64,000 bases of DNA, taken from NCBI GenBank assembly GCA_008933995.1, contig WARS01000043.1, positions 6,626,977 through 6,690,976 on the forward strand, written 5' to 3'. A model generated the notes under the pieces. It had not been told where the DNA came from. It was given only the letters and a program-made list of their open reading frames with translations, and made no database searches. Shown here in pieces: positions 3,816 to 48,679 of the stretch. Position 1 is the stretch's first letter; every line of letters begins with the position of its first letter. The DNA comes from Datnioides undecimradiatus. Taxonomy: Eukaryota > Chordata > Actinopteri > Lobotiformes > Datnioididae. The translations under genes were made by a program, and so were the position numbers.

Positions 3816-3842
3816 CATCTAAGCAAATGTTGACTGCTTGTC

Positions 3843-10201: not shown

Positions 10202-10245
<44 letters not shown>

Positions 10246-11218: not shown

Positions 11219-11262
<44 letters not shown>

Positions 11263-12667: not shown

Positions 12668-12669
<2 letters not shown>

Positions 12670-12711
<42 letters not shown>
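12670..12711. repeat. (CA)n in canx intron 1
   Basis: About 21 CA units. Confidence 0.95.
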
Positions 12712-12713
<2 letters not shown>

Positions 12714-13661
12714 GGGCTGTTAACCTGTGTTGCCCTGGCACCCATCCATCGCCATGGTGATCAAGCAGCACCCACAAGACACGCAACCTCAGCTCTGTGA
12801 ACCTTAATGAGATTACACCCCACGGGATTACAGCAGCCCCCCACAACACAGACACACGATGTGTATATATAGACACACGATGACCATGATGGATTGTAAT
12901 ATGTTCACTGACAACACAAACTGTGCTGCGTTAACTCACAATATCAACAACTGCCACTCCTGTCGTCATTGAGTTGATAAAACTTAGACATGGTTTTAAT
13001 GACTAGTCGTTAAAAAAGCTCATTTATCTGAGTGGGAACAATGTGCAGCCACCACCTGTTCAATTGTTTTGTCAATTACTGATGTCACCAGACTGAAAAG
13101 ACAAAGTCTGGACCTGATCAGGGATCAATAAACCAAGTGAATGGACACCAGTGAAGCACACACTTCTCTTTTCCTGCATGGATGGGACGTGAACACATCT
13201 CAATAATTACTCATTAATTATGAGTAAACAGACCTATGAACCTATTAAAAGCTGTGCTGTGTAACAGGAAGTCTGATCCCAGGCCGCTGATTAGCATAGA
13301 GACAATAACCTGCAGGTGTTCAGCTCAGCACGTTAACCTGCTGCACATCTCAGCAGACTGCCAGGCTAATCTGATTACCCTGGAGCAGGATTAGCATGCC
13401 TGGCTAACAGCCTAATGATGACTGGAACCACCACCGGTGCTAACTGTTAGCTTAGCATCAAAGCTGCCTGGCTGGTGCCCACAAGGCGCTTGAGGGAATT
13501 AGCTGCAGAGCTTCAGAGGGAAAACTTCACACTCGAGACACGGTTCAGTTAGACAGCCGCTGCTGCACCAAACCCAACAGGTTTACGTTAAACCAATAAA
13601 ACTAACTCACTAATAGGCATTTTAGGCAAAACGGACATCATCATTTTATCCTAATTACTAC

Positions 13662-13663
<2 letters not shown>

Positions 13664-13697
<34 letters not shown>
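13664..13697. repeat. (AAT)n microsatellite
   Basis: Trinucleotide run in canx intron 1, followed by a short (GAT)n patch. Confidence 0.9.
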
Positions 13698-16600
13698 TAC
13701 GATGATGATGATGACAAAGTGATCTCTTTCGATTTTATGATGTTTTACTGACTCAGCTTAAACTGACAATCATCAAGTTTCTTTAATGGGACTCGTTTAG
13801 TGTCGTTTTGTTCACGTGCAAATAAAAATATAAATCTGTTGTCAGTCACCTGTCCTCTTGGTGCTGCCTGACGATAGAAATCAAAGATAATGTTTTCAGT
13901 GGCGGATGAATCCACATCTTGTGCTTCAGATAGTGTTTGGGGCAGCAGGTGTGTGTGTCTCAATGTGTTTTTAGTCATTTCTGGACATCAGTGGAGCTCT
14001 GTGGCTCTACAGCTTCTTTCTCCATCCTGCAGCAGCAATAAGCTTCTAGAAGGTCTCTGATTGGCCGATAGCAGACAGTCTTAATCAGTTCAGTGAAATG
14101 AGCTGAAGTTGCTGTTCTCCACCAGACTGACAGCAGCAGCAGAGGAGGAGCAGGAGGCCTTGAGGTGCAGTCAGTCAGTTAATCTGATATTAGAGTCAGT
14201 TTAGCCTGCAGGACATCTGCTGCTGCTCTGATTCACTGTCTGATAAGGAGGCAGTGCTCTCTGAGCAGCAACTGGACTGTGTCATAAAACCAGAATATAA
14301 GGTTGGTTGTGCATTACCAATTCATCTGTGGCCTATTGATTAACTGATCAATCTGTGAAATGGGATTAGTCTGGGGGCTGTCCATCAGTTTCCCGGAGTT
14401 CACTGTGATTTGTCGGACAAACAGACCAAAAGCAAAGATATTCAGCCTGCTTTGATAGAAAACAGCAGAAATACAGTTTTGTAATTGAGATTACAGTCTT
14501 AATCTACTTTAATCTGCGCTATTTGGTCTGATGTGAACTTCAATAATTTCCTAAATCAGATCCTAAATTTTAAAATTTGGGAAACAGAAAATATTAAAAT
14601 CAGTTTAAAACCATTGCCAGTTACCAATCAGGCAAAAAAAAGAATTCATCATTAATTAATTTAATGTTTTCTCATTGACTTTCTCAGCTAAAAAAAACAC
14701 CCACACACTCTAACGATAACTTCAGTTCTTCAGATCAGGACTCGACTGATGTTTATCCACAAAGTTTCTGTTTTTATTTCAGAAACTTTTGGTCATTTTG
14801 TTGAATTATGAAAACATTTCAGGGCGGATCTGCCGGCGCTGTGAAACGGGGAAATCAGCCTTTAATCAGGCTGCATCAGTTAACTGAGCAGCAAACAGGA
14901 CGGGCAGGTTACTGTTTAAATGGAAACAAACAGCGAGCAGCCCTGCTCCTTTACAAAGTGACTGTTTCAGCGCCTCTATCTTTCACATTAAAACAAATGA
15001 GCTTTAACACAAATGAGTAAACTATCAGCTGGAGAAGCTGTTGCCCTGTTAAATATTCAAATTCAGACCCATAAAATCAGAAAACCACTATTGGTACAGG
15101 TATTTAGTAATATCTGGGAGTTATTACAAATTAAAATATAAAATAAATCATTTGACTGGTGACTGTTTTCAGCATTTTTAATCAAGTTAAATGAGATTAT
15201 AAATAGTCAAACCTGCAGATCCTTCAACCTAATCTCAGCAGCAGTGATGCCACTCAATCTATGGATTTACTTTAATGTCAATATGTTGTCTTATTGTGCA
15301 GCAACAGTAACTGAGTTTAAAGATCTGAGTCTAAAATAAAAACATTTTGTCAAATTCTATTTTAAAATGAAACCTTATATAAATATGACTCGTGCTGATA
15401 TCTAGTGTTAAAATCTTCTGTCTGTCACTCATCTGGTCAATCCCAGAAACTCCTGCACACATTTAACTAATGGACAGTAACTGCAGAGCTGGTTTCTATC
15501 TGAGTGACTCCGGATCAGCGGGTGGCAGTCCAACAACCCGCCCTGAATCCTGACAGAAACCTGGCAGGTTGAACCAGTCAGACTACTTCACCTGAGAGAC
15601 CAGATCCCAACATGTGGTCATGAATCAAACACATGTGGAATCATTAAAACCCACTTTCACTTTCACACACAAACCTGCTTCTGACTTTGTTAAAGGTCCA
15701 AGATTTAAGGAACGTATGCTGCTGCAACTTATTGGGGAATGGTGGAAAAACAAATAAACACTCATTAGGACTCAGTGATCCATTAAACAAAACAAAATGA
15801 ATAAATAACAACACAACTGCCTCCAGCTCAAATGAGGAGAGATTGAACCCAGATGGAGCCTGGTGCAGCTGCCAGTACCTCAGACTGTTCTGATGTTCTG
15901 CGTGAAGACTGAGCAATGACGTGAAACTGAACTGGACATTAAACATCATTTCAACAATTATATTCGAGAAAACAAATGTTTATCCATCAGTTTTCAAAAG
16001 GACATTTACACTGAACTAAATTAGCTGCTGGAGAAGTTTAGTATTTTACACATTAACTACTAATAACTAATTAAATACCACAAATTGACAAACCAAATGA
16101 AATCCCCTTAAATGTGTGTATTAAATACTGTAACATTTCACTGACAGTGTACGGTTTATACTGTTAAAGCAAACATTGAGAAAATTGTGAAATCTGAAAA
16201 ATAAAAAAAAGCAGATTTTAAAAAGGCTGCGACAGGAAACATGTTGTGCATCATTTTAACCCTGTTATAATAAGTCAGCTGGCTTTTACCAAAAAGAAAT
16301 ATCTCCTCACGTTGCAGTTTCACCAGGTTAAGGACTTACTGCTTCTCACATTTTAACATTACTTTAATTGAACATATTTTTCTTTTCTCTTTCTAGAAAG
16401 ACATGAAGACAGAGGTGAATGATTAATCATGATAGATAATTGACAAGCTGCAGATTATCACTAGTTGTAGCTTTGTACCTTCAGAGCCTCACACGTTTGG
16501 TGTTTGGTGGAAAGTTTAAGGTCTGTCGTACAATTCTAATCCAAGTTCTCAGCGTTCGGACAATATTTGGTTTCATGGGTTTGTAATGATGGAGCCTGTT

Positions 16601-21246: not shown

Positions 21247-23476
21247 TCAGTCTGCCTTCTTTATGAAGATCTGAGGGGGGGACCATAGAGACCACAGAGA
21301 CCAGTAAGAACCAGTGAACAGTCAGCACAGACCGGCAGGAGCACAGGAACCTGTCAGACTAACTCTGGGTTTAACTGACCCACAAAGGTCAGAGGTCACA
21401 GTCTCCGGCTGTAGTGACACTAACCCTTCAACAACAAACACATTAAAACAAATAATTCTGGTTCTGACTGATGAGAAATGAGACTTTCAAGAACCAGCTT
21501 CAAGGACCCCTGAAGTCACATCAGAGTCCCCTGAAACATCACAACTGCAATCATCTCCAGGACTCCAGGTCTGCTTTCAAGTTCTAGCAGGAACTGGGGA
21601 AAGCCTCTCAAGAATGCCTGGAATTCCTTGAGACATAAGTGTAACCCCTTCAAAGACATTTTAACCTCTGGACTTTGAAGGTATTTTTCAAGGATGTGGG
21701 GAGGACAGCCTAAATCCCGGAGGCTCTCCCAGAACAATATCCCTACCAAGCACTAGGACCTGGACTTGGAGATCCTCTGAATCCCTTCAAAGAAACCTGG
21801 AAACCTGTCAAGGACCTCCATTATAAAAAAGTTCTTGATGTCCTCTGAATATATCTCTGGGATGTCCTAAGTTCTCTAGGCTCCTCTTCAGGGACCAAAA
21901 CCTCTCTGAAACACCCTTTTGATCACATCAAGAAACCTGGAACGTCCTTGAAAACACATATAAGCATTTCAAGGATCGCTGGCACCACATTAAACAAAAC
22001 AATGGCCTTAGATCCAGGCTGACCCCTGCAGCTGCACTCAGATCCTTGGAACCCCCAAAGACCTGTTCAAGAACTCATCTGATCATCTGAGGACTTCAAC
22101 CAGTCAAAGGACTTCCTTTAAAACCCTGAGAACTTCTTCAAGACCTCCATCTGTATCACCTCTGCAGGTACCCAAGAGCTAAAATAAAGAACCTGGAAAC
22201 TGCTCAGGTCCCCCAAAACCTCCTCAAAGACGTCGTCCTTTAAAGTACAGGAAGTGACTTTGGCTCCATGTCTCATTAAACTGAACAAACCCTGCTGGTG
22301 AAACTGGTCTGGATCTGGTCCCAGTCTGCAGGTCTCACCTCGCTGAGAATCACCCAGACTGGCGAGTCCGTCATCACGGACAGACGCATGGCCTCCAGGG
22401 GCCCAAAGGTGGGGTCCACCTCCCCCTCTGCGATCCCGTTGTGGAACGTTCCTGCGAGAGACGAAGACCAATCAGATCAATAAACCCTACAATCTATCAG
22501 AGTTGGTTTGTCTATTTCCCAGAATGCTTTGGGACCAAGCCATAATAAACATGACCGTGCACACAGTGTAACTAGGTAACATGTAGCTAAGTACTAATTT
22601 CAGGTACTCAATTCTTTTCTCAAAACTTTTCTTTTCAAGCTACTTTCTACTTTTACTCCATTACATTTATCTGCTTTAGTTACTTTTATCTAAAAACACA
22701 TGAATCGTTTATAAAATCAGAAGTTTTGTATAAATGAAACTGAAATAGTTTCTGTGTCTGCAGCTGAAACCAAGACTCGGTTAATTAATTAGTTGTCAGG
22801 CAGAAAATGACTCGTTAGCTGCAGCTCAGCTTCAAATGAATTCAAAATCCTCCTGACGTTAACAAATGAGAATGAAATATGATGTGATGACAGTCACAGG
22901 CCACATTTTAAGACTTTTTCCTGAAATGAACATTTCCAATATGTAACTTTTACTTGTAATGGAGTAGGTTTACCTGGATACTTCCTGTTTCACTGAATAT
23001 GAGACGTTAGTTATTTACCACAGCAGGAACATCAACACTGAGGCTGACTGTCCATTAATGACATTTCTCCAAAAATCCCTAAAAAGTCCTTAATTTCATT
23101 GGTTGGATGATCCTTTAATCTGGAAACAGGGAGCGCGAGTGTTGCAGTTTTTTTTGGTTTATTATTTATTTATTCATTTGCTGATGGAGGTGAGTAATTA
23201 AGGGTTTTCTTAGTGCTTTCTGTGCAGATTTACAGGGTTATTAATGGTTACAGAGACCCATTAGACTTATCTAAAGTCCATTAAGTGACCGTTAAGTGGT
23301 TGTGCAATGGTTGTTGTCGTCCTCTCCAGGCTGATTTCAGTGAAAGTGGGTTTGGGTGCGACGGCACCTCAACAGAGCAATAATCCCTCAGAGGATGTAT
23401 TTACCGGGATTATTGTGTTGCCAGCGATGCTTCCAGGTACGAGTGTGACCGTAATCCCAAGAAAGAGCAGCGTCTG

Positions 23477-23537
<61 letters not shown>

Positions 23538-26500
23538 TTATCTCAGAGGATTATCTGTTATTGTGGGTATTATGACTTTCATTGAGAAGGCAGCGACATG
23601 TGAACGGCTCAGAGACGATGAAGAGAACAAAAACCAGAATCAGACGCAGAGATCGACCCTGTTGTGCTTCACATAGGCATCATTTGTTGTGCCTTATAGG
23701 AGCAGGTTATTAGCAAAAATAAATAATTATCTACAGTAATTATTAATTGAAAGAATATTATTATTAATAAGAATTAATAATTACGGGGTACCACCCTGGT
23801 ATCAGGGACCAATAACCAACTCGAAAATCAGTCTCACAAATGTTCGCTTACAGATATCAGTACCTGGGAGGTACTGATATGCATAAGACGAACAATGAAG
23901 GTGTGAATCCGAGCACTGACTCTTTTAACCAGCCTTTACAACAACACTTGTACAAACAATGCAGACAACTTCTCTTTAAAACATAACAGAATTTATTAAA
24001 ATCAATGATATCAATTAGTAATCGATAACACCTCAATCAATAAACATCCATCATGTACCTATTCTAAATTATACAAGGGTGTGTGTGTGTGTAAAAGAGG
24101 AGGGGTGAGGTTGCGGACGTGAGGGAGGAGAGGGAGTACGTCACGCAAGAGTTTCGGTCAGGGGAAATGACCGCGAGGTTGGAGACCGCAAGATGGCGAC
24201 TGGAGCAGGCGTGTTGTGCTAAACTCTGCAGCATTATTCGAGTATCTGATGGGAATTTGACGAGGCCAGTGGTTTGAATTGCTTGTTAAACTGCTAGACC
24301 TCAACCAAACAAGGATAGAAGAGTTTGAATGACACAGTGAAGACCTACCGACATTAACTCTCTGACACGTGCGACAACCAAGTTACGAGCTAGCCTACGA
24401 AGCTAACATTGACACCACATCAGTGACCCGAAATGACAAAGAGAGATGCAAAAAATGCTCTCCCCTTCCTGAGACCCCCAGCCAAAGTCCAAACCCGAAG
24501 AAACTATGCGGTAACAGCAAGGAGAAAGACATGGTTTCTAACTCCGACATCCTTCAAGCCATGTGTGAGTTAAAGAGGAGTTTTTCTGCATTTGAGCAAC
24601 AAATGACACAAAATACAGCAGACATTAAAGAAGCCAAAGAAGTGATGAAAGAGCTTAACTAAAGATACGGAAGACAAAGTGAAAACGCTGAATAAAAGAG
24701 CGGACGAACTGAAAGAAAAAAACAAAGAAGGGGAAAGATACACCAGAAGATGGAATCTGCATCTCATCAACCTCCCAGAAAAAGAAAACGAAGATGTGAG
24801 GCAAGAAGTCCTCAAAATATTGAGTCAGATTGCACCGGATGAAAAAAGTAAGCTGGGATTCCTGGTTGAGACGGTACACAGAGTGGGACGCCCGAGGGAT
24901 GACAGCAGACCGCGTCCAGTTATCATCCAGTTTACCATGCGATCCTTCAGGAGCAAGATATGGAGAGAATCACGCAACGCTGACATTTTGAAGAAGATGA
25001 ACCTCCGTATCGCCAAAGACCTAACCCGCTTCGAGAAAGACTGCAGAAACAAACTGTGGCCTTTGGTCGAACAGGCACGAAAGGATGGAAAGAAAACCAG
25101 ATGGCAAGGACCGATCGTCTTCATTGATGGGGTTAAATTCACTGCGTGAGAAATCTGTTTTGATAACAACAATACCTGATTAGGTTTGATTAGGTAAGCT
25201 TAATATAAGCATTGTTATGGCCTAAACACAGTTAAAGTTATTCACCTGATACTCATAATGCTCAGAGTATTTATAACTTTTTCAAGGTAGGGAGTTCACT
25301 AAACTCCTTTCTTGTTGTTGTTTCCTTGTTTTGCCATCTTGTTATTTTCTTTTCATGGCAACCAATAATTTCATTAACCTGAAAGTGATTTCTCTAAATG
25401 TCAATGGCCTACGTAATATGACTAAAAGAAAGGCCATTTTTTTGTTTTGTAGAAAATCTAATGCAGATCTATTTTTTTTTTTTTACAAGAGACACACTCA
25501 TGTGAAGATGATCGTAAGTTCTGGAGAAGTCAATGGGGAGACCAAATCTATTTAAGTCATGGATCTAACAACTCAGCAGGAGTAGCTATATTGTTTAATA
25601 AATTCAAAGGAGATGTTATAGAATCCCACTTATCTGAAGAAGGTAGGTGGATTATCTTGGTGCTTAGAGTAAACAACGTGATTCTAGTGATGAATAACAT
25701 TTATGGTCATAATAACAATGTACTAGCAAAAAATTTGTTTAGCCAACTGACTGCAAAACTAATGATGCTAAAAGAAAAATATAAAGAGGCTCATGTAATT
25801 ATTGGCGGTGACCTAAATGATGCAGCTGACGACTTAATGGACAGAATGCCAGCTAGAATGCCCTCCAACTCAAGATTTAAAGTGGTATCATACTTAAGTG
25901 AGCAACTTAATGTTATAGACACCTGGCGATATATTCACCCTTACCAAAAAGAGTACACATGGAGTAATGCCAGTAATTCTTTACATTCACGAATAGACAT
26001 GTGGTTAATATCCACTTACACTATGCAATTTGTTTCTGTATCATCTCATAGTTATGCCCCCTTTTCAGATCACAAAATGATAGTCATTTCCTTTACTAAT
26101 CCTCTAGAACAAAAAGCAACACTACGCGGTTATTGGAAATTAAATTGTAATTTACTGAAAGACGAAGCCTTCTGTAACTCAGTCAAAGCAATAGCGTGGA
26201 AAGTCTTTAATGGGAATGAACTTACATACACAAAAATGGGAATTCTTTAAATTTAAAATCAGAGAATCAGCCATTAGACACAGTAAAGAATTGAAAAAAC
26301 GCAGCAATATTAAAGAATCTGAAATTATGAAAGAACTAAATATCCTAATAAACAAAAGGTCCCCTACTCCAGAGGAAGAAATTAAATTGACAAAATTGAA
26401 AGATGAGTTGGATCGTTTGTATATTAATATGACTAAGGGAGGCATAATAACATTGTTTCCCAAACCAGACAAAGACCACCTGCTATTGGATAACTGGAGA

Positions 26501-29500
26501 CCAATAACACTGCTCAATGTTGACTATAAAATTCTCTCACTAATTTTTGCCAGACGTTTAAGAAAAGGTTTAAATGAAATCATAAATGAAACTCAAACTG
26601 GTTTTATGAATAATCGTCATATATGCTGCAACATTAGGTTTATCCTTGATTTAATAGATTACTCGGAATATGTCGATTCAGACGCTTTAATTTTATTTTT
26701 AGACTTCTATAAGGCATTCGACAGTGTAGAGCATCAATTTTTATTCCATTCACTTCAAACCTTTGGGTTTGGTGAAAGGTTCGTTTCATATATCAGAATG
26801 CTCTATAAAGATATTAGTAGTAGCGTCATGTTATTCCCATATTCTACCAAAAGATTCTCTGTTTGTAGGTCAGTCCGTCAAGGCTGTCCCTGTTCTCCAT
26901 TTCTCTTTCTTATAGTCGTTGAATTGCTTTCAATTCAAATTTGACAGAGCAATGTCTTTCAAGGTTTAAAGATCTTTGAGAGAGAGATTAGGATAACTCA
27001 ACTAGCTGATGATACAGTCTTATTTTTGGAAAATAAACAACATATAGAGACAGCACTTAAGCTAATAGACTTCTTTTCTTGTGCATCAGGTCTAAAACTC
27101 AGTTTAACAAAATGTGAAATATTGTGTCTCTACAACACTAATGAAACACTAATATATAAGATACCAGTTAAAAAAGTGTCAAATATCTTGGAATTCATAT
27201 TTCTAAAAATCCTAGTGAACGTCAAACAAAAAACTTTAAACCTATGATACAAAAGACTAAAAATATATTTAATATGTGGCTTCAAAGAGATTTGTCTTTA
27301 TTAGGCAGAGTTCTTCTGAGTAAAGCAGATGGCATCTCTAGATTTGTATACCCTACTCTCTCTCTTTATGTTCAACAATCCTTATGTAAAGAAATAAATA
27401 ACACCCTAATTAGCTTTATTTGGAAAAACATTTAAGACAAAATGGATAATTGACTTTCTGAAAAAGCCAGAGTCTCTTTGGTGCTTTATCCCGTATAATA
27501 TTTTTGGAAAAATTGGAGGGTTAGCTTTTCTCCTAAATTGTGACTATGATGTTTTAAAATTACCTCTAAAGTTATCTAAATTTCATCAACAAGCTCTTTC
27601 AGCTGCAAAATTATGCTTTGTCCATAACTTCTCCCCTCATAAAACTATTATTTGGAACAACGAGTTCATTACTAGGAAAAATAAATCTCTTTTTCTGAAA
27701 CATTGGATTGACAAAGGAATAGTTTACCTCAAAGACTTACAAAATGATGAAGGTGAAATTTTTAGCTATGAAGAATTTCTTAGATCCAAAATCTTTCCTG
27801 TTACTTATAAAGAATTTCAAATGGTGATAAATGCTATCCCCAGTGGAATTCTCCAATTGATAAAAGGTCATTTTGAAAGGCAGGAGACAGAGAAAGTTGA
27901 TGTTACCTTCTTTATAAATGGTATAAATATTATGAGTCACCATTGTAAAAATAAACATATAAGGAATCATTTTTTCAAAAAAAGGAAAATCGCCCCTTGA
28001 GGGAAATTTGTATGGTCCTCCTCCTTCTCTGACATTGATTGGAAAACGACATGGCTCCTTCCTCATAAGTTTGTCATCTCCAATAAAATTAAAGAAGTTC
28101 AATATAAAATTATACATAACATCTACCCCACTAATACTTTTTTATCAAAATGTATTAGTATTGATGTGAATTGTACATTTTGTAATACCGAAGAGGAAAC
28201 AATTAGGCACCTTTTTGTTGAATGTAATTTTTCAAAGAATTTTTGGAAAAAAATTGAATTTTATATCACCTCTCAATCCAAGATACCAATCAATTTATCA
28301 ACTAAAGATATACTTCTATACTACAACAATAAAGATAAGAAATTTCAACACCTAGTTAATTTGATTATCTTAATTGCTAAATTCTACATACATAAAGCCA
28401 AGTTTTCCAAAAATCGACCTTTCTTTCCTGTTTTTGAAATTGATTTCAAGATTTTGAATGTATTAAAAGAATAAAGAATAAGAAATGTATACACACTGTG
28501 AACATAATTCAAGAATTGTTTAGAGAAATGTAACTTGCTTAGGCTTTTTTTTTGTGTGTCAACTATTCTCACCCTGACTTTTCGTGCACTTTATGGTTTT
28601 ATACTTTTATTTATTGTCAAAGTTCAAGATGCCAGACTATACTTTTTTTTTTCCAATGTTCATCTTTCTGAATGTAATTGTTTGTTCTCAATAAAGTTGG
28701 AAAAAAAAAAAAAAAGACCACAAGGTTTGAAAAAGACAACAGCTAGTGGCGTCTGTGAGCTTAGCCGTGTGTCTCTGACAAATGAGGTTTCACCGGTGTA
28801 TACCCGGTGTGTATGTGTGTGTCAGTTAAGGGGGAAAGAAGGGAAAACACAGCACATAAAGAAAAATTCTTCGGGCTCCGGTCGTCAGACTGTAGTACGC
28901 CCAATCAAAGAAATCAAATGAACAAATGGGACGCTTGGTCCATTAATTCAAAGCATGGGACTTGTAGTCTGCTAACTTAACTTATACAATAAAAATTATG
29001 AAGAAAACACACTTAAAACTACCTCTGCCCAGATCAAGCCTCTTACGTGCCTACGAAGCAGGGAGATGTGTGGGATCCGTCTTTGGGTCCTGCTCGGTTC
29101 CTCGGCTCGGATGATGAGTACAGTGACTGAGTTCCAGTACAGGTTGGAAGTGGTGGTTTACTTCCTTTTGCGTCGTGCCTAGCTGGGATTCGTGTGGAAG
29201 CCACTAGACACAGACTGGAAGCTCGTGGTTTAAGCAGTGTTCACTTCCTTTTACGTCGTGACCAGCTGGGATCCTTGTGGAAACCGGCTGGAAGCAACTG
29301 GAAGCCAAGTTGTGAGGGTTAGTCCAGGTAATATACCTGCAAACATCTGGCCGCACAGCAGGGTGCTGGCGGCTATTGTCCAATGGGAGTCCGCACCCAC
29401 CAGGGGGGGTACGACAGAGGGGGTTAGGAACGGAGGTGGCCTGGGCTCCTTCCTGGTCTGGCCCTTTGATCTTAGACAAATGGAGCGGGGTGCTGGTGGT

Positions 29501-32171
29501 TCCCGTGCCATTTGGGGGTCAGTGCTCACCAGGGGGGCGGCCGAGCAGGTAGGGGCGGAGGTGTCCCACACTCCTGTGTGCTCTGGTCCACAGGTCTAAG
29601 ATAAGGAGCAGCCAGGATGCTAACAGCTCCGTCCAATTGGTGGCTGCACCCAGCAGGGGGGCAGCAGAGTGATTAGGGATGGAGGTGTCCTGCATACCTT
29701 TGTGACCTGGCTCCCAGGTCTTAGACAAAGAGAGCAGCCATTTGGTTGGTCTGCAATCTTTGACCTGTATCAGACCTCAGGTTGTAAACCTTGTCGGGGG
29801 CCTGTTGTCTGTATGAGGCCCAACAACCCTCTGCTCTGCCTCCAGGCAGTAATCAAGCAATTAAGTAATCGAGTACTGTACATGAATGTTTCTGCTTTAT
29901 ACTCCTAACTACATTTGGCAGCTTTAGTTACTTTACAAATTCAGATTTTCAGATGAAATAATAAATTGTGATAATATATAATAGTAATATTTATGGATTA
30001 AGTTGCTCAGCATTAAAAAATCCAGTATAAATATTTGTTATTCTAAAGTGAGTCCTTTTTAGTATTTTTATGTAATCCTGGATATGGATATGGTTGTGCT
30101 CTTGAGTACAGGAGTTTTCTTGTAACAGATTACTTCTAGTTTGTGGTATTACTACTTCAGTAAAAGATCTGAGTACTCCTTCAGTTTAAACCGGAGAGAG
30201 CAGCTGGAGTCCAGTTCTCCAGTCCCAGCACTCAGTTATTCCTTCATGCTAATCGCCACGAGTCGCTAATGCCAAAATAAATCATTTGTCAGTGATTTCT
30301 AATCAATCAAAGTGTCTGAGATCATTTCTGATGTGTCGTCTCGATGGTTTAACGACCTCTACTCTGATTAGCTTTGGGTGAAAAGCCGCAGGCAGAGTCT
30401 GCTGCTCTGTTAGGCTGCTAACATGCAGCTTTGAGCTAATGTTAGCATGCTAACATGGTGACAACAACAGGTGCAATGCTTCCTGTGCCTGCCACCATCA
30501 TAGCCCAGTGTGTTAGCATGCTAGCTAATTAGCAGTAAACCGAGTTGGGCTGAGGCTGAATGCCGTCAGCTGTTGCTTGATGGCGGCACTATGACGAAAA
30601 GACAGGAGGAACGTCATCAGGAGTCATCCTCTGAGGAACATGAATATCTGAACATCATAACAATCTGTTCTACTGCTCTGAGATGTTTCAGACGGTCATG
30701 TGCCTTTACAACTGCTAAAACCCCTGAATGAACCCCTCAGCTTAACTTTGAGGTGTGAAACATCTTCAGGTGTCGGCCCATCGATTGATGTGATGTTTCT
30801 AATAATCCATCAATAATCCTGTAAATCTACACAGAAGGCCTCATGAGTCTGAGTTACTACAATGTGCTTATGAAATCAGTCACATCAGGAACATTTGATC
30901 TGACTTGATGGACAGAATAAGGAGCTTTGGTTCTTCATGTTCTCTTCTCTGACGTGATGACCTCAGAACATCTGAAGATATCAGGCTGAAATTAATAGAG
31001 TGAAGGATAGCCAATCGATCGGCTGGCCCATCTGAAATATTGATGAAGGAGATAAAGAGCTGCTGGTGACTGACTGAACGTGGCCTCCGCTGCTTCATGT
31101 TTGTTTCTTCTTCATGTGAAGTTCTGCAGCAATGTGCAGCTTTGGACTCAAACACGGCGAAGGTCTCACTTCAGGCTCATCTTCACCACGTTTCTCAAAT
31201 CAAAAGATTGACAGATTGATGGAGGAAATGATCAGCAGCTGAACCCATTGTTTATTTGTTTGTTTGTTTGGTGACAGACATCAGGTTCATCTGATCAGTA
31301 AAGCTCAGTAAAGCAATAATTCATATTTACATTCATATTGTATTGTTTCTATGTGTGTTTTATGATTTTACTTCTCCTTTATTTATGTGTTTATTCGTTT
31401 ATTTATTAAAATTATGATTTAATGCAGCCTTGAACAACACAATGCACATCGAAAACTAAACCTTGATGCAAAACTTATTAATTTTATTTTGGACATTTTG
31501 GTGTATTTCATGGATTTATTTCCACTGGTTTTTGTTTTTATTTATTTGTTTGTTTATATTTTACACTGCTTATTTTCTCATCGTCCCTTAATGCCAGCGC
31601 CTTTCATTCAATCTGAAATAACCTGACAAACGTTTAAATGTTGTGACGCTGACGCTCTGCAGGCTCCACAGCGAGGTTGACAGGTGAGAAATCTGATTAT
31701 TGACCGTTTTTATGTGGATTTTACAGTTGCCATGGTAACCACAGAGCAGGTAACCAGGAACTCCTCCTGTCTAAGTTTAGAGCGAGAGCTTAGTTATTTG
31801 TTTTTATTAGTTTTCTTTACTGTCTGATCTTTGAAAGTTGTTCAACATGCTGTTGGTTTTGTTTTCAATAACCTGATTTAATAAAGTTACATATTCAAAC
31901 AGATGGAAATAGCTGCTGCTGCTGTTTTCACTGCTTATATAACCGACATTAAATAAAATGAGATCTCCCAGAACAGTGAACTTTACGTCACTGGCCAAAC
32001 TCGTAAACGTTCCACTAAACCCTTCACACAGGAACAGCGTGGTTTCATGTCTCTGTGAGGACCAGCACGACTTTTAGAGCCGAGGACTGAAGTTTGAATA
32101 TTTCCTTCACACACAATAAACAGGCTGCATGTTTGGGTTCATGTGCCATGTCAGTGAAAGTGTGTGTGTGT

Positions 32172-32209
<38 letters not shown>

Positions 32210-32392
32210 TCCTCACTGAAGCTGAAAAACAACAGCAGAGCGGCGTCGCCCTGAATAACTTTCCTGTCTGTCGCTGCACAGCTCGTTAAGCTTGTTAAGA
32301 CACACATCGAGCTGTCTGAACATCATTGATTAGCAGGCGGCGTGACGGACGCACCGACAGCCACACAGCTTATTTAGATGCAGGTGACCTTC

Positions 32393-32456
<64 letters not shown>

Positions 32457-35400
32457 CTTTGTAATTTAGAGCTCATTTCCTTTGTATTAAGCCTTTCTGA
32501 TGTTTGTGCATCACATTCACACACCGACACACAGGTGAAGACACACACCTGTTGTTTCAAACATCACAGCTTATTTAGTTTGTCTGAGTTCAGCCTTAAC
32601 GGGCCGGAGGGTAACAGTTATGTTCAGCCTAGTGTCAGGATCCAGCCTGTAGTGTCGTCACTCACCTATCCTGATGAATCCGTCTTCTGTTCGATGGTAC
32701 TTTGGTGTTTTCTCTCTGCCATCTGTCAGTGCCTCTTTGTCTGCCTGGATATTCTGTCAAAACACACAAACGCACCTTTACTGCCCTGATTATTAGTTAC
32801 TCATAATTGTAGCATAATATGTTAGCCTGTATTAGCATTAATTAAACAGATGGATAGGAAACATTAAAACAATTGTACAAGTTGAAAAGAAGCAAGAAAA
32901 CCAGTTTATGGGAGTCACAGCCGCCAATATAAAATAATAATATACTAAGTTTGAAATGTCATTTTCCATTCCTGTGGAGGATCTGACAAAGCTTCCATAA
33001 AGAATTTAATCCAAATTTAATTTAATGTTTGACAATCGCAGTGGGTTCCAGTGTGCTCCGAAACCAACAGATCAGGACTCCCTCCTGTCATTGGCCTCAT
33101 GTAAACAAAGACAAGCAGGAGATCCCTCACTGGCTTCCCACCAATTAACACACAAGTTAATAGACAACTCTGCCAAGGTGAGGCCATCATAAATCAAGGT
33201 GCTGATTTTTATTGATTATATATTTGTTTATTGATAAACAAATATATAATCAACATTTTGTCCGTCTTCAGTTTCCTCCTGTTTGTCTTCCACATCCTCC
33301 TCTCCCATCATCTCCCTCTTCCCCTCTCTCGCATGGTCAGCGTTACCCTGGCAACTGCCTCCACCTTCTCAGTCATCCCCCTGCATCCACAGCTTCCTCT
33401 AAGTGTTTCTCTTTAGTTGTCTCTCTCTCCTCTGCTGAGGTCGATCTCCTCCTTTTCCTCTCTTCAGCCTTTGTCTTACAGTCGACCACAGAGGAGGCAG
33501 ATCCATCACTTTGCCTCAACTAACCGGGACCACAAACCTGCTCTGCTCTCAGTAATGTTGAAGGTGCTGATGATAAATTCGTCAGATGTGGTTACTTTTT
33601 AGTTACACCCATCATTTCGTTCAGTAATAATGACACACTCATAAAACAAGGTCAAACAGAGCAGGAAACAGGACAAAGCTTCTGTAATAGATTAATGACT
33701 AAGTAACTGGTCTGGACTGGACTTCAGGACTCACATCAAAAGGCAGAACCTCCACTGACGTGTTGAAAAGTTTGTCTCCCGGATGTTCAATGTTTCCGCT
33801 GCGGAAGAAATACCTGAAAGAAGAACCAACACAGACAGACAGAGTCCGGTTCAGTACACTGGAGACAATCACCATGATCGTATCAGCGATGGTAGAAGAA
33901 GAACCAGTGGTGGTCATTTTCACAGAAGTAGCAGTTGTAGTTAAAGAAATTGAACACTATCACTGGTCTAACCGTCCGATTAGGGGATGCTGGATTTAAG
34001 CTACCCTGTACCTATTAAACCACGATACCCTTTGGTACCCTTAAGACCATATCAGTCCTGATGCCCTCCAGTCCTCTTGAACTCCCTCCTGGAGCTCCTT
34101 GTTCAGTCTGGCACCCCTGAGAGATTACTATCCATGAGTACCCCCTAATACCCACATATGCCCTCTGGTACCCCCTGCATCCCTGATGCCCTGGTATGAT
34201 TTGGTACCCCTTTGGTAACCCAGAGACCTGGTTACATTTTCCTGTCCCAGAAATGCCCTCTACTACCCTGCCCCATGCTGTTCAGGTATCTTCTGATCCA
34301 TCTCACATCACACCCTGTAACCCTGGTACCCTTTGGTTTGATCTAACACCCTGGCATCGTCTGGTGCCCTTCACCACCTGTAACTCTAGAACCATCTGAT
34401 ACCCCAGAGCCCAGTATCCTCCATGACCGTTAACACTCGGGCATCTTTACCCCTCAGATTGGGTAAGGACACCCTGTCACCTCCTGTAACACTCCTTGGT
34501 ACCAACCTCTCGATCCGGACAGGTGTGAAGAATCGTATCCGTATGAAGTCCCCTGCTACAGGGGTGAAGGCCCAGAAGAAGTCTTCCCCCAGGTAGGCTT
34601 TCTCCAGGGTGAAGTGCTGGTAGGTCTTCAGGCTGGTCGTCACCTCCGCCAGCGGGTTGGCGTGACCCTTATGGAGGGTCTGCTTGCCAAAGTCCTTATC
34701 CTGGAACAAACCATGGAGTTGTTTGTTGATAAAACAGCACTTTGAGAGTTTGTAGTTTCTCTTTTGTGACATATTCACAGGTGAAGTTGAGGGTGTTCTC
34801 CATCTCAACACCTGAAGATGCACCGACAATGTGCTGCTGCAACCCAGCTTACAAATGAATGTTAGCTTTGTGCTGCTAACCGCTGAAGACTGATTGATGG
34901 CTGGTTCAGTCTTTGGGATCAATCTGGAGATTCGATCTAAATAACATAAAAAATGACTTCTTGATGCTTTTAGATCAAGAAGTCATTTTTTATGTTATGG
35001 CGACTGTGACCTGTGTAAGTGTGTATTAAAGCAGCTGCGATTCAGAGAAGTGGATTCAGATATCAGGGAGTTGTTTTCTACTGTGAGCTGCCTCTCTGTC
35101 TGACTGGAGAGTCTGCAGAAACACTAAGATGACTGCACTGTGCACTGACCAGAAAATAATATGAACCGTTAGTCATTTTCGACTGCCAACAGCCTTTTAC
35201 ACAGACTGGTATCGTTGCCAGCCTCGCTAGCTGCCCTTGATGACTAATCCAGTTTCAGTTCAGTCCGGAGACACTCTGAAGATACCAGCAAGATGCACAG
35301 AGGCATGACATCACTGCTGCACTGATTCAGAGACATCTGTAACAGACATTTCCAACCTCCAAACCTCGAACATGGACAGTGTATCCAGGTAAAAATCACC

Positions 35401-37218
35401 TGATCTGAAATAGTTCCAGGTCTGCAACCAAACATTTGACTTTGGAAAATGAATGTTTAAAGCAGACTGATGGACAGCATTGTTTTTGTAGCTGTCACAT
35501 CTGGGATCCCTTTAGCTGTGTGTCCAGTTTTTATGCTAAGCTAAGCTAACTGACTGACTGCTTGGCACAAAGACTCTCTGTCATGATGCTGAATTATGGC
35601 TTTAAATCTTTGACAGCTGATGCATGAAGGTGGCCTGAGGTTGTGATTCTGGGGTTTATGAACTCAGAAACATGATTTCTGACTTTTCCACTTTGTCTCA
35701 TTTGAACAAACTCTTGATTTAACTCCCTCTTATTAGACTCTCCAGACAAATAAATCCCACTTCCACTTTGATTCTTTTCATTTAACTTTGATTTTTAAAA
35801 CTCGGGGTTGATTTTCTCACGGGGAATGCTTCAGGCTGAGGGTAATAGCTATGTTTAGCCCCCATCTGTAGCCTCCCAGCGCAGACCGGCCTCTCTGGTT
35901 CAATCCCCATATCGAGGAGGCGCTGGTCCGGGACGGCTGGATCAATATTTAATTGATTGGACCAGATTGCGGCACCAGTCAGCGGGGCTAATATCCATCG
36001 CTCTTAACACAGTAATCAGAGGCGAGCTGCGGCGTCAGGCTCTGAGCTGCTGGCAGGAAGCGCAGCTGTGAGTGCAGTGCAGTGTCTGACGACTGCAGAG
36101 GCTTTCAATCTTCATCCCTCCAGACTGAACTTCCTCTGAACCTGGTTCAGGATCTAAACTCTGCGCTGATCAGTGCAACCTGTCTGCTGCTCTGCGCTGC
36201 AAGAAGTCCACATATATCATATGGATGATTCTGCAGCTCAGTGGAGGAAACATCGTGTCCTGTTCGAGTTTTTCTCCCACGTTATGTTTTAAGTGTTTGC
36301 TCTTTAATGTTTCAGTAGCTTTAAAGAGTTTTATTTGCATCATCAGAACCTCCTTCCCTCTCTAACCTCCATCGTCCTGTAGCAGAAACATGTTTTAAAG
36401 GCTCTGCAGACGCGTCCAGTGTCAGTCAGCAGGTTTTATCACAGCACTGTTGTTCTGATGTGAGGGTTGATATTTAATATGTCCTGAAGACACGACACAG
36501 TCATCAATCCGTCTTCAGGAGCTGATCAGAGGTGTGACAGGTCTCCTTCTGGTTCGCTCTGCTGTTGCTTTGCTTCCTGTCTCCATGGCTGCACACCTGC
36601 TGCAGGTGAACCAGCAGCGAGGACACACCTGCACCTGCAGCTCCTGAGACCCTTCACAGCTTTAGGTAAACGAGTTTGATGATAATAGTACCTCCAGCAC
36701 CAACTCTGCATCAGGCCCTGAAATGTCCAGCTGAGGTCAGCTGTTTGTCAGGTCTATATAAACAATATGGACACACACACACACACACATACAGACACAC
36801 ACACTCAGACACACCCTCGTTTGTTACCTTGAGTTTCTGTATTTTCCCGGCCAGGGACGAGTGTGTGCCGACGTGCTGGAAGAGAGACGGTTTAAACCGA
36901 ATCCTCAGGTTGGCTTTCTGCCTGTCACAGTGTTTCTGATGGAGACACAGAGACGGTCACAACAACAACAACAACAACAACAAAACAACACAGACTCCAG
37001 ACTTATACTCCAGAATTTATATACAGACTATACAGACTATACAGTGTGTTTTGGACCTCCCTGAATCAGTCAGACTGAGGTACTCACTGCATCCTTCTCC
37101 GGGTTGCACACTTTGACCCACATGATGTGGTCGAGCAGCCAGTCGATGGGTTTGTCTTTGTAGAACATTAGCATGAACTCCACGATGAGCGACAGGTCCA
37201 ATGACTTAAACATCTTAC
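21247..37218 (-). CDS. mgat4b: MGAT4B (GnT-IVb), C-terminal part; 5' exons absent
   Basis: Golgi alpha-1,3-mannosyl-glycoprotein beta-1,4-N-acetylglucosaminyltransferase that starts a third branch on N-glycans. Exons (gene order): 37088-37218, 36828-36935, 34507-34700, 33735-33813, 32666-32753, 22339-22451 and 21247-21270. Each join is in frame with GT-AG ends, and the last exon encodes IFIKKAD and stop. The seven exons give about 244 of roughly 548 residues. Recognisable pieces are [80 protein letters not shown] and [18 protein letters not shown]. This is the end of the GT54 catalytic domain plus the C-terminal lectin-like domain. The membrane anchor and most of the catalytic domain should lie at higher coordinates but are not found up to 41.1 kb. 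The MGAT4B-type C-terminus and the canx/maml1 neighbours favour MGAT4B over MGAT4A. Confidence 0.93.
21480..22200. repeat. Degenerate CTTCAAGGACC/CCTGGAA-type repeat
   Basis: Words such as CTTCAAGGA, CCTGGAAACC and CCTCTGAA recur throughout the last mgat4b intron without a fixed period, like an old minisatellite. Confidence 0.5.
23479..23533. repeat. (GT)n microsatellite
   Basis: About 27 GT units. Confidence 0.95.
23854..23880. repeat. Hairpin: 11-bp perfect stem, 5-nt loop
   Basis: ATATCAGTACC, TGGGA, then the reverse complement. The flanks also pair imperfectly (TGTTCG on the left with CGAACA on the right), extending the foldback to roughly 30 bp per arm. Possibly part of an older mobile element 200 bp upstream of the LINE. 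Confidence 0.8.
24369..25149 (+). pseudogene. LINE ORF1 (nucleic-acid-binding protein), frameshifted
   Basis: The first segment (24369-24662) ends in a stop after VMKELN. The reading resumes one base out of phase (from about 24664) and runs to the stop at 25149. It contains a Lys/Glu-rich coiled-coil region, [32 protein letters not shown] and a basic end, the arrangement of L1 ORF1p (coiled coil, RRM-like core, C-terminal domain). A single-base indel near 24660 accounts for the break. Confidence 0.8.
25331..28474 (+). pseudogene. LINE ORF2 (endonuclease-reverse transcriptase), broken
   Basis: The endonuclease portion shows [12 protein letters not shown] near 25385, GGDLND near 25806 and SDHKMI near 26071. 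The reverse-transcriptase portion shows [18 protein letters not shown] (26463-26517), [11 protein letters not shown] (26699-26731), [11 protein letters not shown] (26878-26910) and LADDT (27001-27016, where the family usually has FADDT). A C-terminal CxxC...H...C finger ([19 protein letters not shown]) follows from 28169. Several stops and frame changes occur, and the region joining endonuclease and RT (about 26250-26440) is far too short, indicating an internal deletion. Confidence 0.85.
29155..29310. repeat. Two-copy direct repeat (about 75-85 bp)
   Basis: The words CTTCCTTTTGCGTCGTG...AGCTGGGATTCGTGTGGAA (from 29162) and CTTCCTTTTACGTCGTG...AGCTGGGATCCTTGTGGAA (from 29246) are diverged copies, each followed by a GACTGGAAGC or GGCTGGAAGC tail. 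Confidence 0.75.
29385..29750. repeat. About 125-bp minisatellite, three copies
   Basis: The core CACCAGGGGGG / CAGCAGGGGGG recurs at about 29400, 29529 and 29653 (spacings about 129 and 124). Each core is followed by GG(T/A)(C/T)GGAGGTG(T/G)CC and a CAGGTCTTAGACAAA-like segment. Located just 3' of the LINE. Confidence 0.8.
32160..32206. repeat. (GT)n microsatellite
   Basis: About 22 GT units with one interruption. Confidence 0.95.
32396..32454. repeat. (CA)n microsatellite
   Basis: About 29 CA units, some 210 bases from the 32666-32753 exon of mgat4b. Confidence 0.95.
33212..33253. repeat. Perfect 19-bp hairpin, 4-nt loop
   Basis: TTGATTATATATTTGTTTA, TTGA, then the exact reverse complement. 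Lies in an mgat4b intron, about 460 bases downstream (gene sense) of the 33735-33813 exon. Confidence 0.95.
34005..34500. repeat. Degenerate GGTACCC/TGCCCTCTGG repeat
   Basis: GGTACCC, GATACCC, TACCCCCT and TGCCCTC words recur across about 500 bases immediately against the 34507-34700 mgat4b exon, without a fixed period. Confidence 0.6.
34941..34998. repeat. Perfect 25-bp hairpin, 8-nt loop
   Basis: The left arm at 34941-34965 starts ATAACATAAAAAATGACTTC. The loop at 34966-34973 is GCTTTTAG. The right arm at 34974-34998 is the exact reverse complement, without a single mismatch. Lies in the mgat4b intron upstream of the 34507-34700 exon. Confidence 0.97.
35003..36827 (-). other. mgat4b: mgat4b intron, remaining part
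   Basis: Between the 36828-36935 and 34507-34700 exons. No coding segment is recognised. It contains GCTAAGC words near 35535 and a (CA)n patch at 36771-36800. Confidence 0.6.
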
Positions 37219-37800
37219 CTGTCAGAGGAGAAGACAGCTCGGGTCAAAAACAACATGAGCTGCAGGTCAGAGGTCAGAGGTCAGATTTCTCCTTAACTGT
37301 TTTAACTTTTAGTTTTTGTAATGTTAGAGGAGACTTTGATGTTCGATGAATGTCCTGCAGACATCATGTTCTGCTAACATCTCAGAGAGGCTAACATTAG
37401 CTCGAACTCTGATAAACATTATTACCGAGCTAGTTAGCCAAGCTAACACATTCACTCATGGAAAGGACTAAAATACAACAGGTATGGACTGACACACCTG
37501 CCGCATCAGTCCTGACTGTAGCTGATACGTTCTGATTGGATGATCCCCGCTCAGGTTAAACAAACAGGTAAGTTCAGCACCTGGTTAGTAAACAAACCAC
37601 AGCCTGATCCAGGAAGTGATTTAAATCTGCTGCAGCTCTGTGGCTGGTTGTTTCTCAATGAACTGCATCTTGGGAGTTGTGGTCTTTCAGTATTTCACTT
37701 CACACAAGAACAGGAACCAGACTTTTCTCGTCTAAATTCAGTCCGGACTTCCTGTTTGTCATCTTCTGTCAGCTGTCTCTGGGTCTGAGTGAACTCACAA

Positions 37801-37873
37801 TCCGGGTGAGCCGGGTGAGTCTGGGTGAGTTGGGGTGAGTCTGGGTGAGTCAGGGTGAGTCAAGGTAAGTCTG
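37801..37873. repeat. 10-bp tandem repeat of splice-donor consensus
   Basis: Seven units of the form CTGGGTGAGT, most at exactly 10-base spacing and the last AAGGTAAGT. Every unit contains a near-ideal GT donor on the plus strand. Confidence 0.9.
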
Positions 37874-38825
37874 GCCGATCGTTCTCAGGGAACTAAAGGT
37901 CTGAACTGAGTGTCTCACTGCAGCTGAAACACTGATGAGGATGAACTGAAAGGCCGACAGGGAGCACCGTCCTGCCGCCCCCTGCTCCGCCCTGATCCGT
38001 GTAGACGTTCCAGCCTCTGAGGGGTCGGACGTGCGGCGAGGAAACAGAATAACGAGAGAAACAAAAACCCTGCGGATGCAAAAGAGGCCGGGCTGGAGCT
38101 AAACTTAGCAAACGCAAAGCTGAGATGTGAAGAGTTGAACTGGAGAGCGGCCCTGCAGCACTGCAGCTCGCGGTGAGTCAGATCCACCCACACACATTAA
38201 TCACAGCCGCAGCCGTCGCTGCCGAGGCAGGGGATTCAGGGTTAGATACGAATCCTGAGGTCGGGAACCAGGACCAGACTCCTGCTGGCTGCCATCGCTC
38301 TCCTCCACCTGTCTCACTCTCTCTCTGTTTCAGTTCGACAGCGCTCACAGTAATGTGTGTTCATGCTGCTAGTGTCTTAATTTTGATTTCAATCATTACT
38401 ATTTTTATTTCCATTTCCTATTTATACAATTTTATTTATTTATTTATTTCCTGTTTTTAAATCTACATCCTGTCGTGTGACACCTGAATTTACCCTGTAT
38501 GCTCTATAAACATCTGATGTAATCACATTACATCTGACACAATATATTTTATTTCTTACTCTGTTTTGTTTTGTTTCAGTGTTACATTATTTTATATTCA
38601 TTTGTGATCATTAAAACAGTAATTACTGAATTATTGTTATTATTATACAGTGACTGGATCTCTGTTTTAAAAAGATCAAAGACACATTAACTTCACTGTC
38701 AGGATTCCCATGATGCAACAGTTTCATCAGCTTCTCACACTCTTTATTATTATGGAGTTTATTTCTGAATTAAACGGATAAAACATATGATTCAGATTCT
38801 TCTGTGTGTGTGTGAGTCTTCTGTG

Positions 38826-38856
<31 letters not shown>

Positions 38857-39433
38857 CACACACACAGACATAATGACATAATTGATTGTTTTGTGTGCTG
38901 CAGTCGGTCGAATCAATAATTCACAGTTAAAACGTTTCATCTCTGGTGACGGAGGCGTTGTCGCCTCATCAGATGCTTCATACGGAGACTGGAGCTGGTG
39001 ATTAAATGCTGCTCACTAAACGAGATGGAGTTAAGTTTGAGCCGTATTCGGTGGCGAGTTATTTACGAACACACACACGGTTTCACTTCCTGTTGATGAT
39101 TCAGATCATTTACTGGAGAGTGTGGGACAAACTGGAGTACCTGGAAGAAACCCACGGTGACACAGGGAGCTGTGGTCGGTGATCCACTGTGCCGCCAGAT
39201 GACCTCCTGCTGCAGACGTCCTCCACCTGCAGCTGCTCTTTGGGATTAATGTGGTGACCATGGAGGCGTCGGTGAAGCTGCAGTGGAAACCCCAACCGGC
39301 AGTAGAAACTGTGGGACGGGGCTCTCTCTACAGGCCGGGCAGAAGGTCTCGGTTGGTCCATGATGCTGCTGTAGGTCTTTCACACTTTGCTCTTGAAGAC
39401 TCATGAGATGTTTTGTATGGGTCCATGGTGACC

Positions 39434-39991
39434 TCAGATGTTTCCATCTCTAGGTACGCCTGCACTGAACACCAGGACCCCGAGCAGGATGTTCCACCAG
39501 CGGGGGGAAGCAGCTGTCTTTGCAAGCCGGGCAGACAACCTTTGGATGTGTGCTTGCAAGCACTGGACGATCTCTTTGTCCACAGTTGGATCCTCCAGCA
39601 TTCGCCTCCCACAGAACTTCCTCTTGAGGTCTTTAATCAGAGCTTTGCAGCCTTTCTTGGTGGTCTTCACGTCTGGGCAGAAGTTCTCAGTCAGGGTGAG
39701 TCCCTCCATGGTCTGGTTGATCAGCCTCTTTGTGTGGGCGACCCACTCCTCCTGGTGCCGGTTCTACAGAGCATGGCACTTGCTGAGCAGTCTCGAGGTC
39801 AGCACGGTAACAAACAACCGGAGCTTCTTGCTCTCCACCTCGGCTCTAGGCTCCAGACCAGATGCGAGAGGGTCAGCGGACTCTGGAGGTGTCCCAGGTT
39901 GCTCCGTGGTGACCTCAGAGTGGACTTCCACCTCGTGGACAGTCTCAGGAATTTGTTCCTCAGTAACGACACTTGTTTGTGCTTCTTCCAT
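39434..39991 (-). pseudogene. Unrecognised intronless frame of 185 codons with one in-frame stop
   Basis: The frame opens at the ATG 39989-39991 (MEEAQTSVVTEEQIPE) and reads through an acidic Thr/Glu/Pro-rich N-part (residues 1-53). A TAG follows CHAL at 39764-39766 or immediately beside it. The same frame then continues NRHQEEWVAHTKRLINQ, a basic middle (KTTKKGCKALIKDLKRKF) and a short hydrophobic end (WWNILLGVLVFSAGV), to a stop at 39434-39436. A CAG to TAG change would explain the single break. No family is recognised. The frame could be a recently inactivated gene, a polymorphic null or a sequencing error. A TATA box and a heat-shock-like palindrome sit directly upstream. The plus strand also happens to be open across most of it. 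Confidence 0.55.
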
Positions 39992-40059
39992 TTCTCTACA
40001 ATCTGTACTGGTTCTCAGTAGTTTCAGTAGTGAGTGGAGTCACATCTGATCCATGGAGG

Positions 40060-40106
40060 TATTTATAGACTCTGCTCTGTTGATCTTTGTTCTAGAACTT
40101 CTAGAA
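40060..40106 (-). promoter_or_regulatory. TATA box with heat-shock-element-like palindrome
   Basis: In the gene sense, 40090-40106 reads TTCTAGAA, one base, TTCTAGAA, and TATAAATA follows at 40060-40067, about 70 bases before the ATG at 39991. A canonical heat-shock element alternates GAA and TTC blocks at two-base gaps. Here the central gap is one base, so HSF binding is uncertain. Confidence 0.5.
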
Positions 40107-41046
40107 CCTGATGATGCAAATTATGACACACACACATTCTGCATTTGAGTTGTTTTGACAAATATAATCCTTTGATGGCACCTGGTATGTTCTACATGTT
40201 GCTGAGTTGTAGATCTGTGTTCCTCCATGACCTCAGGTGTTTCATCAGGTTCAGACAGTCTGTGAATCCAGATCAGCTCTGTGATCGGCTTCACTTCCTG
40301 TCTGTGGTGTCATCGCCTCCTCTCTGTGCATGTGTCGGTGTTGTGTTTGTGTGTCAGCAGCTTGATAAACTGACTCTGGATCAGCTGTAAGACACATTTC
40401 TGTGCTCTCTTTTCAGCCGCTGCTTGTTTTTAACTCTGTATCTGAAGCAGATGAAGGATTTAGTCGTCGGACGTCTGGATCTGAAGTTATCAGAGAAACA
40501 AGCTGAGCAAACGTTAGCAGCAGCTCGGCTCGCCGCCCCTCCAGGACGTCCCGTGTGCGGCCGACAGCGTGGGAGAAACAGTGGTTTTTAAGGTGGAACT
40601 GCTTTATTCAGTGTTTCTCTGGGTTTGAATCAGCGGCTCTGTTTGTTTTGGAGAGGAGGAGACCTCTGTGGAGAATTCAGCTCCCAGTAAAAACCTCCTG
40701 AACCAGCAACACTGAAGGAATCCCGGCTGACAGGAAGACAACAACTCCCAGCATCCCACACTGCTGCAGGAGGTCACATGACTGAGATCCTCCTGGAGCC
40801 GACCGTCAGCTCTTTCAGCCTCTAGAGGAACAGCGAGGGGTGCTCGATTCCTCTGTCTCCAGCCTCAGGAGTGATGGGTAGAGCACACAGGGACTTATTA
40901 AAGTGAATTGGAGCAGCAAAGCCTCATGGGAAGAAAACAAGTGTGTGTGTGCGTGTGTGTGGCTGCAGCAGGAAAAGAAAGAAGGGGACACACACTTTGT
41001 TTCTCTCTTGTGTGTGTTTTGTGCAATTAAACATGAAAATCATGAC

Positions 41047-41049
<3 letters not shown>

Positions 41050-41094
<45 letters not shown>

Positions 41095-41127
41095 CATTTT
41101 NCACACACACACACACACACACACACA
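41050..41127. repeat. (CA)n with unresolved base N at 41101
   Basis: Two CA runs (41050-41092 and 41102-41127) separated by ACTCCATTTT and a single N, the only ambiguous base noticed in the window. Confidence 0.95.
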
Positions 41128-41154
41128 TGCTGACAGGATGTGTGTGTCCTGCAG

Positions 41155-41465
41155 GTCTCTGGTGGCACCATCGCAGACCTGTTGGCTGGTCTGAAGTCAG
41201 TTGGAGAGTGCAAGGCGCTGAGGGTCCTGGAAGAGGCACTGCATCACCTTGATGACCAGGAGATGCAGATGACCCATGAGACGAGAGGTGAGTGGACTCC
41301 GATTGGATGCCGTGTTGGTTAAACAGCGTTGCTGGGACGACAAGTCCTCAGCTGTGGTTTCTCTGCGCAGGCGGGTCTCTGTGTGCTCAGATCCGGGATC
41401 TGAAGGTGGACGCTCGGCTCGACAGCGGCGTGTGTGACAGCGGGGTGGAGCTGTCAACAGCATGA
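41155..41465 (+). CDS. nfkb1: NF-kappa-B p105 (NFKB1), last two coding exons only
   Basis: p105 is the precursor of p50 and a cytoplasmic I-kappa-B-like inhibitor. Exons 41155-41287 and 41371-41465 join in frame (GT-AG), encoding about 74 residues to the TGA at 41463-41465. The first exon begins VSGGTIADLLAGLKSVGE, the end of the death domain and matching the VSGGTV start of the equivalent vertebrate p105 segment. The second contains LDSGVCDSGVELS, the IKK-phosphorylated DSGxxxS beta-TrCP degron that marks p105 for processing, here preceded by a second DSG. The protein stops three residues after the degron, whereas mammalian p105 continues for over 30. No Rel, ankyrin or earlier death-domain exon is found upstream. 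The ube2d3 neighbour agrees with human 4q24. Confidence 0.85.
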
Positions 41466-41659
41466 CCATCTGATTGGTCGGTCTCCAGCCGGGGTCATCA
41501 GGAAGAGCTGATGCATCGTCTGGCGATGGGCCGGTGGATCAGTGGATCTCTGTCTGTCCTCCATCATGAATGTTTCTCCTCACAAACATTTTAATGAGTT
41601 TTTAATGAAACGTGCTATTTTTTTACCCGACGATGCAGAAAACATGTTTGTTGTGTATA

Positions 41660-43868: not shown

Positions 43869-48679
<4,811 letters not shown>

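Follow-up and report, generated by a model that had tools for sequence, protein, structure and literature searches.

Why are two genes, mgat4b on the minus strand and nfkb1 on the plus strand, both cut short at the same 4-kb interval of a contig of the fish Datnioides undecimradiatus? The window analysed here is the whole stretch of 64,000 nucleotides (G000:C490:6626977-6690976) and lies on contig C490 (6,998,795 bases) of an assembly comprising 581,297,614 bases (581 Mb) in 497 contigs. Its only N is located at position 41101, inside a CA repeat (Table 1). In human, MGAT4B maps to 5q35, DGKQ to 4p16 and NFKB1 to 4q24. A preliminary description of the window had recognised both truncations and the N, and attributed the junction to either an assembly chimera or a breakpoint. 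We consider it very probable that the interval is neither a chimera of unrelated loci nor a breakpoint, and that it represents a hidden assembly gap.

Table 1. Coordinates of features at and around the junction, in window positions.
Feature	Position	Strand	Basis or remark
mgat4b 3' part	22336..37219	-	tblastn; PF04666 profile positions 194-278
mgat4b matches	37219-37088, 36935-36828, 34703-34491, 33815-33735, 32753-32664, 22452-22336	-	tblastn
Between the gene stumps	37220..41100		Presumed mostly mgat4b intron
Dispersed repeat, ~0.6 kb	40186..40784		536-608 bp aligned, 94-98% identity, 7 loci examined
CA microsatellite	41050..41127		Holds the sole N; probably the likeliest site of the hidden gap
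Penultimate nfkb1 exon (end of death domain)	41155..41287	+	phmmer, tblastn; scores weak on their own
Last nfkb1 coding exon	41371..41466	+	Read by eye; ends ...DSGVCDSGVELSTA stop
ube2d (ube2d3/2-like) gene, right flank	43872..46885	-	tblastn

Human MGAT4B, NFKB1 and DGKQ sequences served as tblastn queries, and residue ranges for mgat4b follow the human MGAT4B numbering. On the left side, six minus-strand matches cover MGAT4B residues 304-542 with 53-100% identity (best E 1e-29), the PF04666 family profile is matched as well, and no recognisable exon lies upstream of 37219 in the window. One additional match (residues 157-204 at 26318-26461, E 0.72) was taken as chance and adjoins a retrotransposon frame. 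The mgat4b intron at 22453-32663 contains non-LTR-type retrotransposon frames at 25462-26941, with endonuclease (PF03372, 8.9e-7) and reverse transcriptase (PF00078, 1e-24) profiles. On the right side, a plus-strand match to NFKB1 residues 863-891 (E 0.07) occupies 41152-41238, and other NFKB1 matches in the window (at about 7.6 kb and 63.5-63.7 kb) were set aside as glycine-rich low-complexity sequence. In a phmmer search with this exon, the p105 death domain 2dbf ranked second (E 0.76) behind a Pelota chain (0.3), although VSGGT aligns at the same exon start. Weak by score, the nfkb1 call also rests on the end of the next exon, ...DSGVCDSGVELSTA followed by a stop, which we compare with the human C-terminal end, ...DSVCDSGVETS. 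Only the last two nfkb1 exons are present in the window, from 41155 onward. The flanking genes maml1, canx and one ube2d gene named in the preliminary description were confirmed, the last of them as ube2d3/2-like. For the ube2d gene, two minus-strand segments, 43872-43916 (0.017-0.039) and 44984-45028 (4e-4 to 1e-3), may be alternatives for the last coding exon.

Between the two stumps, tblastn with the human queries gave no mgat4b or nfkb1 exon match at 37220-41100, and in a DNA search the stretch 36500-41000 was matched elsewhere in the genome by repeats only (best 40 of 1833 candidates). The dispersed repeat in this interval belongs to a young repeat family: one of its ends is nearly fixed (40771-40784 at 7 loci), the other is variable (40186-40250), and at least 39 further matches with 93-99% identity were obtained, some of them on twin contigs. 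At 39437-40018, the minus strand carries two open stretches (MEEAQTSVVTEEQ... and NRHQEEWVAHTKR...) split by one stop; the frame reads like degraded protein, with a best Pfam E of 0.15.

The missing exons were searched for in the rest of the assembly, as the preliminary description had advised, and it is because of this search that the case could be settled. Many of them were found on small contigs, whereas mgat4b residues 241-303 and nfkb1 residues ~584-862 were not. The PF04666 search of the genome yielded 22 matches (23/23 candidates scored), in which the 5' portion of the profile falls on C410 (21,128 bp) and its twin C411 (21,073 bp). Four tblastn matches on C410 with 62-87% identity cover MGAT4B residues 33-240, have no overlap with the residues 304-542 of the window, and are carried by both members of the pair. 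Exon 1 is located on the plus strand of C415 at 10579 (MRLRNVSFLTVLLFGLCGLVSLSWYTAFSSSRG; E 6e-12, 64% identical to the human sequence across 33 residues). Residues 241-303, which presumably include the catalytic motif, were not found in the PF04666 search of the genome with all 23 candidates scored. On two other contigs, C468 and C46, the PF04666 profile is matched over its whole length. Together with the split mgat4b, this gives three genes, as expected from PMC12616123 for non-salmonid fish, with one MGAT4A, MGAT4B and MGAT4D each. The long uninterrupted PF04666 matches at two loci of C334 and on C58 are probably of MGAT4C type.

The search for the Rel homology domain (PF00554) gave 21 matches genome-wide (22/22 candidates scored), which fall on C13, C8, C463 and C232 as well as on the small contig pairs C409/C412 and C413/C414. 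By tblastn, C409 carries nfkb1 residues 37-86, and C413, with its twin C414, matches from residue 84 to ~583, with ~402-502 unmatched; the glycine-rich stretch and the first ankyrin were found, and the dimerisation domain RHD_dimer scored 6.5e-42 on three exons joined by hand. Residues ~584-862, including the later ankyrins, were not found in a genome search with 127/160 candidates scored, and residues 1-36 were not located, positions 5001-13000 of C409 being covered through search matches alone. A death-domain search (40/40 candidates scored, E up to 1) named no nfkb1 exon, the window's own included. The pair C459/C460 was considered for the missing ankyrins and rejected: the part of C459 examined codes for an extended ankyrin array, which is not nfkb1 and which we take to be tankyrase. 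The ankyrin matches on C232, which also has a Rel homology domain, probably derive from nfkb2. Marker searches were uninformative, with an SQSTM1-type UBA on C237 and CDGSH on C24.

A third gene bridges the two. The DGKQ N-terminal query gave 18 matches genome-wide (28/28 candidates scored). Four of these matches on C415/C416 cover query residues 1-114 with 56-77% identity, and C409 matches residues 119-168 with 68% identity, the match crossing one stop. C409 further contains a C1 exon of a diacylglycerol kinase (PF00130, 2e-9) and, on its minus strand from 11742 to 10914, matches to the accessory domain PF00609 (39 genome matches, 47/47 candidates scored), and the minus-strand frame 5442-5182 of C415 resembles the start of a C1 domain with an E of 0.0051, under Pfam's cut-off for PF00130. 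Both C1 and accessory domain are thus matched, and the theta subtype would follow from the 56-77% identity to the human DGKQ query. On C415, which was read from 5001 to 14415 with 101-5000 covered through search matches alone, mgat4b exon 1 (plus) and the dgkq exons (minus) stand head-to-head, ~5.1 kb apart; the pair C415/C416 thereby joins mgat4b exon 1 to the first dgkq exons found, and the pair C409/C412 holds later dgkq exons and the early part of nfkb1.

Based on these contents, the pieces would form one chain which, in the orientation of the window, runs from (i) the left part of the window with the mgat4b 3' part (minus) through (ii) C410, forward, with further mgat4b exons (minus), (iii) C415, reversed, with mgat4b exon 1 (minus) and early dgkq (plus), (iv) C409, reversed, with later dgkq and then nfkb1 (plus), and (v) C413, reversed, with the middle of nfkb1 (plus), to (vi) the right part of the window with the nfkb1 end (plus). 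Strands agree along the entire chain, both window flanks included, and the splice phase is preserved at both of the joins that were examined. For mgat4b between C415 and C410, exon 1 ends in CCAGAG before gtaag and exon 2, after ctgcag, starts with GAGATGTGG, giving R-G-D-V-V; for nfkb1 between C409 and C413, GTCAAG before gtaacg continues after cttcag into ATCAGTAAC, giving V-K-I-S-N-Y. Each contig end seen falls within a microsatellite or a short tandem repeat. C413 at its end and C409 at its start have 23 exact bases of a low-complexity CAC/CAT repeat in common, (GT)n makes up both the tail of C409 (59 bases) and the head of C415 (46 bases), and the ends of C415 and C410 consist of (AC)n and (AG)n, respectively. 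No sequence overlap ties the low ends of C410 or C413 to the window, and a filtered comparison of the high ends of C415 and C410 revealed none. Outside repeats, the end of C409 has its twin C412 as the only match among the matches listed (best 40 of 1262 candidates). A 65-bp minisatellite common to C410 and C413 was rejected as an overlap, as it occurs on many contigs genome-wide and is uninformative for adjacency. It lies with a shared flank at 1101-1521 of C410 and 9668-10007 of C413, with up to 98% identity across many contigs, and may represent a mobile element that includes a tandem repeat.

The eight contigs are consecutively numbered 409-416 of 497. By length alone, the small contigs 405/406, 407/408 and 417/418 also pair, so the pairing itself is not special, but the presence of mgat4b, dgkq and nfkb1 pieces within one run of eight contigs is. 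Near-equal-length pairs of small contigs were observed throughout C405-C418 and for C459/C460, and many duplicates may have escaped purging in this assembly.

We propose that the real locus would have the order mgat4b (minus), dgkq (plus) and nfkb1 (plus), as neighbours. The assembler would have stopped at several microsatellites and minisatellites, leaving the middle of the locus as small contigs, each with a twin, and the scaffold would have set the outer flanks side by side with a single N between them, probably at the CA repeat. The missing sequence was found in part on small contigs of the same assembly, the order and orientation of the pieces fit both flanks, and the scaffold's own placement of the outer flanks agrees with the chain. 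C410, C415, C409 and C413 sum to 65,799 bases; since mgat4b residues 241-303 and nfkb1 residues ~584-862 were not found, more sequence is lacking on either side, from the left flank to C410 and from C413 to the right flank, so that the missing amount would be at least 65,799 bp plus a further amount.

The alternative that survives best, very improbable as we consider it, is a genuine deletion allele of ~66 kb or more on one haplotype, with C490 as the deleted allele, lacking dgkq as well as the 5' parts of the other two genes, and the small contigs as the other allele; the animal would then be hemizygous for an innate-immunity transcription factor. The twins leave room for this reading, as they do not necessarily represent two haplotypes. 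In the alignment of C410 with C411, none of the 19,975 columns shows a substitution; the two contigs end alike, and what sets them apart is seven dinucleotide-repeat indels and the count of a 65-bp unit. An initial reading of the twins as two haplotypes was therefore dropped, as these repeat-length differences prove nothing about two alleles; C410 and C411 may be technical duplicates and are probably the two arms of one unresolved graph bubble, as the other twins would be too (the reading covered all of C411, and C412, C414 and C416 through search matches, lengths and their first 100 bases). Against a deletion, the supposed intact allele also lacks exons, the assembly being incomplete here anyway, the contigs end in repeats, and severe effects would be expected if dgkq exons and most of nfkb1 were lost.

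An assembly chimera, in which everything right of 41.1 kb comes from another chromosome, is suggested by the separate human locations of the genes, 5q35 and 4q24, and by the N sitting in a CA repeat, and we regard it as slightly less probable still. C415 joins mgat4b exon 1 to dgkq and C409 joins dgkq to nfkb1, so that the exons do not sort into two separate loci, and the strands of both contigs agree with the window flanks, which a false join could only mimic if it had brought true neighbours together by chance. The argument from 5q35 versus 4q24 is misleading, as mgat4b and nfkb1 appear to be neighbours in this fish. A real rearrangement breakpoint severing both genes, to which their common end in one scaffold interval might point, is hardly credible, as the exon, strand and splice-phase layout of the small contigs provided no evidence of one: their exons are open, splice sites are in matching phase where examined, the layout is that of an uncut locus, and the gene halves lie on small contigs that would form one chain, so probably not at a second chromosomal site. 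The interpretation in the preliminary description is thus partly supported: the junction is indeed faulty, whereas both of its explanations are disfavoured by the exons running from mgat4b through dgkq to nfkb1 in correct orientation.

If the interval is a hidden gap, one N can conceal at least 66 kb together with large parts of three genes. In an automatic annotation, nfkb1 and mgat4b would probably appear as truncated genes and dgkq would be missed on this chromosome; comparative work could misread the gap as gene loss or rearrangement. The contig chain shows where the pieces are to be placed and points to an mgat4b-dgkq-nfkb1 neighbourhood in this fish; among the titles listed in literature searches that paired nfkb1 with any of mgat4b, dgkq, canx and maml1, none dealt with fish gene order.

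In exon content and identity to the human proteins, the three genes resemble vertebrate MGAT4B, DGKQ and NFKB1, the MGAT4B and NFKB1 assignments being putative, whereas their neighbourhood differs from the human locations. With a chimeric misjoin, the locus shares two truncated genes meeting near a repeat with an N; in contrast to such a misjoin, its flanks seem to be genuine neighbours, correctly ordered and oriented. The closest likeness is to scaffold gaps with too few Ns that arise from contig dropout at repeats, in that the contigs break off in (CA)n, (GT)n, (AG)n, CAC/CAT or short tandem repeats, sequence is left on small contigs and the outer flanks are joined. It differs from these in having one N for at least 65.8 kb of missing sequence; the gap is ordinary in kind and unusual for its single-N mark.
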